In this document: one piece after another, positions 62,813 through 64,000 of the stretch | Numbering within the stretch: the stretch's first letter is position 1 | Layout of the letters: each line of letters opens with the position of its first letter | NCBI GenBank assembly: GCA_905479925.1 | Contig: CAJQOL010000007.1 | Location: forward strand, 62,001 to 126,000 | Reading direction: 5' to 3' | Source of the DNA: an uncultured Kangiellaceae bacterium | Lineage (GTDB): Bacteria > Pseudomonadota > Gammaproteobacteria > Enterobacterales > Kangiellaceae | DNA length: 64,000 nucleotides | Translations under genes and position numbers: made by a program | The notes under the pieces: model-generated | What the model was told of the DNA's origin: nothing | Databases searched by the model: none | Seen by the model: the letters and a program-made list of their open reading frames with translations, nothing else

Positions 62813-63253
62813 GTGAAAAAGACATTTTCTAGAAACAAAGGCTTCACATTAATCGAATTAATCGTAGTAATCGTGATACTCGGGATAATGGCGGCGGTGG
62901 CTGGTCCAAAATTTATTAATCTACAGACAGATGCAAGGTTATCCGTAGTGGACGGCGTTGAAGGGTCGGTTCGAAGTGCTGCAACATTGGTATACTCAAA
63001 AGCGCTTATTGACGGTACTGAAACTGCTGCAACCGGATCGGTAACTGTTGCAACTGGAGCAGTTACTACTGCATTTGGTTATCCGACTGCTGATGCAGCA
63101 GGAATTGTTGCGGCTGTTGATGTTGCCGGCGATATCGATGCAACAACCACTCCTGGAACCTTTTCTCTCAGGGCTAATTGCCTTGTTACCTATACCGCAG
63201 CAACTAGCGCAACGGTACCAGCAGCAGTAGCTAAGACAGTATCTGGCTGCTAA
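62813..63253 (+). CDS. mshA: MSHA major pilin (prepilin)
   Basis: The track starts at 62753; the GTG at 62813 has GAGGAA upstream and gives a proper prepilin leader, (M)KKTFSRNKG, cut before FTLIELIVVIVILGIMAAVAGPKF, with Glu at mature position 5 (146 residues). LVYSKALIDG and AFGYPTADAA match known MshA pilins, and two C-terminal cysteines (ANC...SGC) form the expected disulfide loop. The C-terminal half is very rich in Ala, Thr and Val. There is only one such pilin between mshF and mshC, so mshB seems absent. Confidence 0.92.
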   Translation: MKKTFSRNKGFTLIELIVVIVILGIMAAVAGPKFINLQTDARLSVVDGVEGSVRSAATLVYSKALIDGTETAATGSVTVATGAVTTAFGYPTADAAGIVAAVDVAGDIDATTTPGTFSLRANCLVTYTAATSATVPAAVAKTVSGC

Positions 63254-63271
63254 CAAGTCGACATCAAGTCC

Positions 63272-63712
63272 TTGTTTTATCAAATAAAGCCGCCCTACTA
63301 TGAGGCGGCTTTTACACTTATAGAGCTTATTATTGTTGTTCTTTTAGTGGGTATCATGGGTAGCTATGCTGTTAGTCGATTTAGCAGCTCTGACGGTTAT
63401 CGCTTAGACACTGCAGCGGAACAACTTATTTCAGCGGGTCAATTGACCAAACAATTGAGCATGAATGACTCAGCTCGAACCTTTTCATTGGTTGTTCAAG
63501 CAAATCAAATTAACCTATTAGCCGACGGCACTTCCTTTAATGGTGGTAATCTTAGTTTCCCGTTGGTTTTTGGTTCAAATATTACCCTTTCGCCAACGCC
63601 AACCATCACTTTTGATAGTTTAGGTAATACCACGGCGGTTACAATTACTCTAACTGGAGCAGAAACCCGTAATGTCTGTTTTCAATCCAGTGGTTTAGTG
63701 CGCCCATGCTAA
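63272..63712 (+). CDS. mshC: MSHA minor prepilin MshC
   Basis: A 146-residue prepilin: AAFTLIELIIVVLLVGIMGSYAVSRFSS. The residue before the cleavage point is Ala, where prepilin peptidase normally needs Gly; cleavage may be less efficient. The start is TTG with no strong ribosome site, only 19 bases after the mshA stop and in the same frame. A nine-base-pair terminator-like hairpin lies over codons 5-14. Expression probably depends on readthrough and coupling from mshA. It overlaps mshD by 7 bases. Confidence 0.88.
   Translation: MFYQIKPPYYEAAFTLIELIIVVLLVGIMGSYAVSRFSSSDGYRLDTAAEQLISAGQLTKQLSMNDSARTFSLVVQANQINLLADGTSFNGGNLSFPLVFGSNITLSPTPTITFDSLGNTTAVTITLTGAETRNVCFQSSGLVRPC
63286..63313 (+). 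terminator. Terminator-like hairpin between mshA and the rest of mshC
   Basis: AAAGCCGCC pairs perfectly with GGCGGCTTT around a nine-base loop and is followed by a T (TTTT in total), 33 bases after the mshA stop. It has the shape of a rho-independent terminator or attenuator, yet it is inside the mshC coding sequence (KPPYYEAAF). Confidence 0.6.
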
Positions 63713-64000
63713 AAGATTTTCAACAACGCGCCTTGACCGAAAAGGGCTACTCATTAATAGAATTAATTATCACGATTGTTGTAACCAGTATTGTAATGGT
63801 TATTTTTTACTCGATTTTTGCCCCTAACCAACAAGGTTCAGTGTCCCCAGTTGTTCAGGTGAAGGCTGCAGAGCTAGGACAAGCCTACTTGGAAGAAATA
63901 AGCTTAAAGCGATTTGACGAAAACTCGCCTATTGGCAACGCCCTACGATGTAACGGCGACCCGAGTTTACTATGTGGCGCAATAGGGGCCGAAGAAGGTA
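63706..64000 (+). CDS. mshD: MSHA minor prepilin MshD (partial, cut by window end)
   Basis: Not in the ORF track because it has no stop before the window ends. The ATG at 63706 overlaps the mshC stop by 7 bases. It opens MLKDFQQRALTEKGYSLIELIITIVVTSIVMVIFYSIF, a prepilin with Gly before the cleavage site (G|YSLIE) and Glu5. About 98 residues are visible, including LRCNGDPSLLCG. Further msh genes (mshO, mshP, mshQ) would be expected to the right. Confidence 0.88.
   Translation, partial: MLKDFQQRALTEKGYSLIELIITIVVTSIVMVIFYSIFAPNQQGSVSPVVQVKAAELGQAYLEEISLKRFDENSPIGNALRCNGDPSLLCGAIGAEEG

Follow-up and report, generated by a model that had tools for sequence, protein, structure and literature searches.

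Terminators that follow a major pilin gene are of a kind already known. In pap-type operons, a similar intercistronic hairpin lies just past the major subunit gene and renders the subunit message abundant relative to the downstream genes; it differs from the element described here in that the pili are of the chaperone-usher type and the hairpin is intergenic. A terminator that falls within the first codons of the following gene is usually written off as coincidence. A search of the literature for an mshA terminator, or for terminators within the next coding sequence, found nothing directly on point. Concerning the leader peptides of pilins, one review holds that Gly is critical and is without exception the last residue of bacterial prepilin leaders (PMC4471445), and another paper permits Gly or Ala at position -1 (PMC3244431).

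The window (the whole stretch of DNA that was analysed, 64,000 nucleotides, from a marine Kangiellaceae bacterium) has an MSH-type pilus cluster as its last genes (mshA, mshC and mshD; Table 1), and mshO and mshP come after mshD, beyond the window. ORFs and Pfam matches give the MSH operon order mshA-mshC-mshD-mshO-mshP, 3' of the msh assembly genes. The mshA product has the class III signal peptide KG/FTLIEL (the slash marks the cleavage site) and the C-terminus ...VSGC. The mshC frame reads QVDIKSLFYQIKPPYYEA-A/FTLIEL, and the leader from the TTG codon is MFYQIKPPYYEA-A/FTLIEL. MshC also carries a class III signal peptide (A/FTLIELIIVV; Pfam N_methyl 22.0 bits, cut-off 21.2), with Ala in the place of Gly at -1. 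Within 63251-63272, mshA and mshC share one frame with a lone TAA between them, and stop-codon read-through of this TAA would yield an MshA-MshC fusion. The shared frame occurs in just 3 of 17 family members and looks accidental.

Table 1 Features of the mshA-mshC junction, in positions of the window
Feature	Position	Strand	Remarks
mshA, major pilin gene	62813..63253	+	GTG start; strong SD GAGG; Pfam N_methyl 9e-10
mshA stop codon TAA	63251-63253		
Open mshC frame	63254-63712		Open directly from the mshA stop
mshC, minor pilin gene	63272..63712	+	TTG start; Ala(-1); GspH-like C-terminal part; mshA synteny in relatives
Hairpin, complete	63286-63312/63313		9-bp stem, 6 G-C
Hairpin 5' arm AAAGCCGCC	63286..63294	+	Encodes leader K-P-P
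Hairpin loop CTACTATGA	63295..63303	+	Encodes part of YYE
Hairpin 3' arm GGCGGCTTT	63304..63312	+	Encodes A-A(-1) and first part of Phe(+1)
U-tract TTTT	63310..63313	+	Last base of Ala(-1) codon GCT and whole Phe(+1) TTT
mshD	63706..64000	+	Runs past window end; ORFs, Pfam; 3' of hairpin

The initial annotation had pointed out a nine-base-pair, T-tailed hairpin after mshA, and this hairpin, AAAGCCGCC-CTACTATGA-GGCGGCTTT(T), is real. For the 41-nt hairpin stretch, the folding energy is -15.9 kcal/mol (z -5.2), which none of 200 dinucleotide shuffles equalled, and for the 77-nt stretch it is -21.3 (z -3.6). Between the mshA stop codon and the stem there are 32 nt, where 33 bases had been given. 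Both features of an intrinsic terminator, a GC-rich stem and a U-tract abutting it, are present; the TTTT is short and ACAC comes next. The hairpin was also said to lie within the only mshC frame and to encode the prepilin leader, and the frame and the codons of the arms agree with this.

When a uniform detector was applied to 204 kb of the source contig, 13 terminator-like matches were observed, 10 of them intergenic and two inside a same-strand ORF, a background that comes from one contig only (about 204-206 kb). Of these two, the mshC-leader hairpin is the one whose stem is longer and more stable. It was not listed by a promoter/terminator scan with loops of up to 8 nt because that scan permits no longer loop. 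Rfam covariance models gave no match at the hairpin and one chance-level match elsewhere. A dispersed palindromic repeat was ruled out, as the exact palindrome is present once in its own genome.

The start signals of mshC are weak. Its TTG, 14 nt 5' of the stem, is the sole ATG, GTG or TTG that the mshC frame offers from the mshA stop as far as the cleavage site. Shine-Dalgarno (SD) pairing in the source is essentially nil (about -0.2 kcal/mol) vs -6.0 for mshA. The TTG start, poor ribosome site and Ala(-1) reported for mshC are all borne out. In the 19 loci where a hairpin overlaps the mshC leader (overlap loci), mean SD pairing is -7.3 kcal/mol for mshA, strong in all, and -1.0 for mshC; the mean for non-overlap mshC is -3.6 kcal/mol. 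The suggestion that mshC owes its TTG start and poor ribosome site to the hairpin did not hold, because hairpin-bearing relatives begin mshC with ATG (available in about 11 of the 19 overlap loci). The loci of family f9 (L102, L113, L116, L125, L133 and L145) have a free-standing terminator that begins only 5-8 nt past the mshA stop, and there the best mshC start is TTG, not ATG, with little SD pairing. Weak mshC initiation is therefore not restricted to the overlap lineages.

Among 40 Kangiellaceae genomes (Aliikangiella and Pleionea are the named relatives), mshC is present in 17, each of which carries Ala(-1) and, at the same mshC codons, a U-tailed stem. Aliikangiella marina, Aliikangiella coralliicola and Pleionea mediterranea are cultured relatives with this arrangement. 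As the leader has the same form in these 17 genomes, a frameshift peculiar to one strain, or an error of assembly, was ruled out for mshC. The U-tailed stem also occurs, with different stem sequences, in two genomes of f14, another family of the same order. In the overlap loci, mshA is immediately 5' of mshC (19/19), the 3' arm ends at Phe(+1), and the stem is followed by T in 18 of 19, the U-tract of L010 beginning with A. The stem and the mshA stop are 20 to 60 nt apart, and the relative frame of mshA and mshC is 0, 1 or 2; the hairpin is thus anchored to the mshC codons and not to the end of mshA. Two observations on gene content were also made. In Kangiella genomes (genus g5, 2.3-2.9 Mb), MshC gave no strong match, in contrast to the Kangiellaceae genera with larger genomes. 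Aliikangiella marina (G023) has two mshC loci with identical junctions on contig C5, separated by about 59 kb (L006 and L030; 16130-16552 and 75227-75649); either the msh region was recently duplicated or the assembly is at fault.

When the 19 overlap loci were aligned, 93.6 % of the cells paired and changes on both sides were observed at five of the nine pairs. None of 500 shuffles reached any of five covariation measures, and the signal was lost when the register was slid by 1-3 columns. The slipped stem of L011 was included and counts against the structure; MAFFT misaligns it, so the covariation count is slightly lower. These compensatory substitutions beyond shuffles are those of a conserved structured RNA. 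The compensation in L003 (GCCACC/GGTGGC) turns AA into VA (Val-Ala), and that in L009 (GCCGT/ACGGC) turns PP/AA into PF/TA (Pro-Phe, Thr-Ala). L146 and L147 retain a 12-bp stem that encodes wholly different residues, and the stem of L011 is likewise kept with different residues. When each real overlap leader was compared with 1000 synonymous recodings, z was -2.8 to -6.5 and only 0-25 recodings were as stable; in the same test, mshC of other families had a mean z of +0.3. These comparisons indicate that the RNA accounts for much of the leader peptide and that the peptide does not account for the RNA; the leader residues appear to be set largely by base pairing and not by peptide function. The initial annotation had proposed a comparison of the junction in relatives, and this comparison points to a terminator-like structure that is kept by selection and whose bases belong also to the mshC leader throughout the family.

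The association of overlap with Ala(-1) is complete on one side (19/19), though few origins are involved. Ala(-1) was also observed without an overlapping hairpin in 9 of 83 non-overlap mshC, from several unrelated families (L078, L080, L089 and L134, and L077, L094, L101, L119 and L144, which are all five loci of f16). As judged from the predicted proteins, Ala(-1) is an established trait of many MshC proteins, contrary to the 'invariable' Gly. We also analyzed the earlier proposal that the hairpin may have forced the leader Ala, and concluded that it did not, because a Gly codon GGT before TTT would fit this kind of stem and would give the same T-run, and because Ala(-1) exists without overlap.

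For other families within the order and the class, the mshA-mshC terminator, where one can be detected, is usually free-standing, with its T-run 40-170 nt or more 5' of the mshC Phe(+1), and the -1 residue is mostly Gly. Some non-Kangiellaceae relatives have no recognisable terminator at this junction. The terminator function probably predates the overlap, since a free-standing terminator comes after mshA in many outside families. In L153 (G721, class level), the terminator AAACCGGC-ACAT-GCCGGTTT overlaps the mshC start region, with part of a possible mshC ATG in its loop, and ends 14 nt before Gly(-1)/Phe; this is a possible intermediate stage toward the overlap. When the mshC tree was drawn, the Kangiellaceae formed two groups inside a clade that also contains f14 and class-level sequences. 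The tree is compatible with a single origin of the overlap in the family, and the GCCGCC/GGCGGC stem common to both groups favours one. The non-overlap member G076 also belongs to f14, and the overlap in f14 may be ancestral with loss or convergent.

The number of leading T residues is lower in the overlap loci than in the free-standing terminators (mean 3.9 vs 5.0, p 0.01, a descriptive value as the loci are related). Shorter U-tracts are expected if coding limits their length, and read-through would rise. The TTT codon at Phe(+1) was considered as proof of termination and ruled out, as Phe codons of mshA and elsewhere are equally TTT-biased (p 0.6). Because TTT is already the usual Phe codon in this AT-rich usage, the overlap U-tract is not independent proof of termination.

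The best reading of the junction is that the mshA terminator and the prepilin leader of mshC have come to occupy the same bases. We consider it fairly probable, from the sequence comparisons, that the hairpin acts as an intrinsic but leaky terminator and as the stable 3' end of an abundant mshA message. Once a polymerase has left mshA, the stem would form in its transcript about 32 nt beyond the stop codon, out of reach of the last ribosome on mshA, and the polymerase would usually release at the short U-tract. The read-through minority would give the mshC-mshD-mshO-mshP mRNA, and the absent mshC SD sequence would cut MshC further. The junction would in this way divide one gene whose product is needed in bulk from three or four of which little is needed. 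We infer termination, some degree of leakiness and a resulting high MshA:MshC ratio; the role in pilin stoichiometry put forward in the initial annotation would fit the weak mshC start signals. A leaky terminator appears to be the simplest account of the stem and T here and of the free-standing terminators in the outgroups.

The main rival to a plain terminator is an attenuator controlled by translation, in which a promptly starting mshC ribosome, perhaps reinitiating after mshA, would melt the hairpin, and transcription of mshC-D-O-P would depend on mshC translation. Ribosome-melted terminators have a precedent in the pilus operon of Streptococcus gallolyticus (PMC3894217), and in many relatives the start codon precedes the stem by about 8-17 nt, a distance at which an initiating ribosome would reach it. 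However, the start-to-stem spacing reaches 36 nt or more in others, the very weak mshC start signals differ among relatives, and an alternative antiterminator stem is absent. On this analysis an attenuator seems unlikely.

A hairpin with a post-transcriptional role only would shield the 3' end of the mshA mRNA, serve as a processing site, or modulate mshC translation, with no termination. What is conserved is a stable stem, the U-tract being short and explicable by codon usage, and the stem often begins near the edge of the footprint of an initiating ribosome. We judge such a role to be quite improbable, as the T directly after the stem is kept in all but one of the overlap loci and many outgroup junctions have terminators with clear T-runs that lie too far 5' to touch mshC initiation. 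That the hairpin is a by-product of coding, with KPPxxQAAF as a conserved leader peptide and the CCGCC/GGCGG complementarity incidental, is very improbable: KPP and AA do recur in most Kangiellaceae MshC leaders, but synonymous recodings rarely fold as well, the residues of L003 and L009 change along with the pairing, and L011, L146 and L147 keep the stem with quite different residues.

A leaky terminator could also be given a wider role. The MshC signal peptide and its cleavage residue would then be shaped mainly by an RNA terminator, the same 27 bases would set the major:minor ratio, and mshC translation that melts the stem, together with slow cleavage at Ala(-1), would give a self-adjusting subunit stoichiometry. 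We regard this combination as unlikely. The terminator-like element itself, internal to an operon and double-coded with a prepilin leader, is by its sequence real and conserved, and apparently undescribed. The weight of the finding lies in the family-wide covariation and not in a single hairpin. The compensatory changes across the family alter the peptide, so that one sequence serves as an RNA signal and a protein-targeting signal, and the arrangement offers a testable route to setting the amounts of major and minor pilins from one operon.

When the hairpin is compared with known systems, the closest in position are the free-standing mshA-mshC terminators of other Gammaproteobacteria, which have a stem-loop and T-run at the same junction, after the major pilin gene. 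They are non-coding and usually have a longer T-run, whereas the Kangiellaceae hairpin is the mshC coding sequence itself. In S. gallolyticus pil1, a terminator stem-loop likewise tunes pilus transcription, and translation through it alters read-through (PMC3894217). The pil1 terminator precedes the whole operon and is opened by a separate leader peptide of variable length (PMC3894217). Unlike it, the Kangiellaceae hairpin separates the major from the minor pilin genes and is itself part of a pilin gene.
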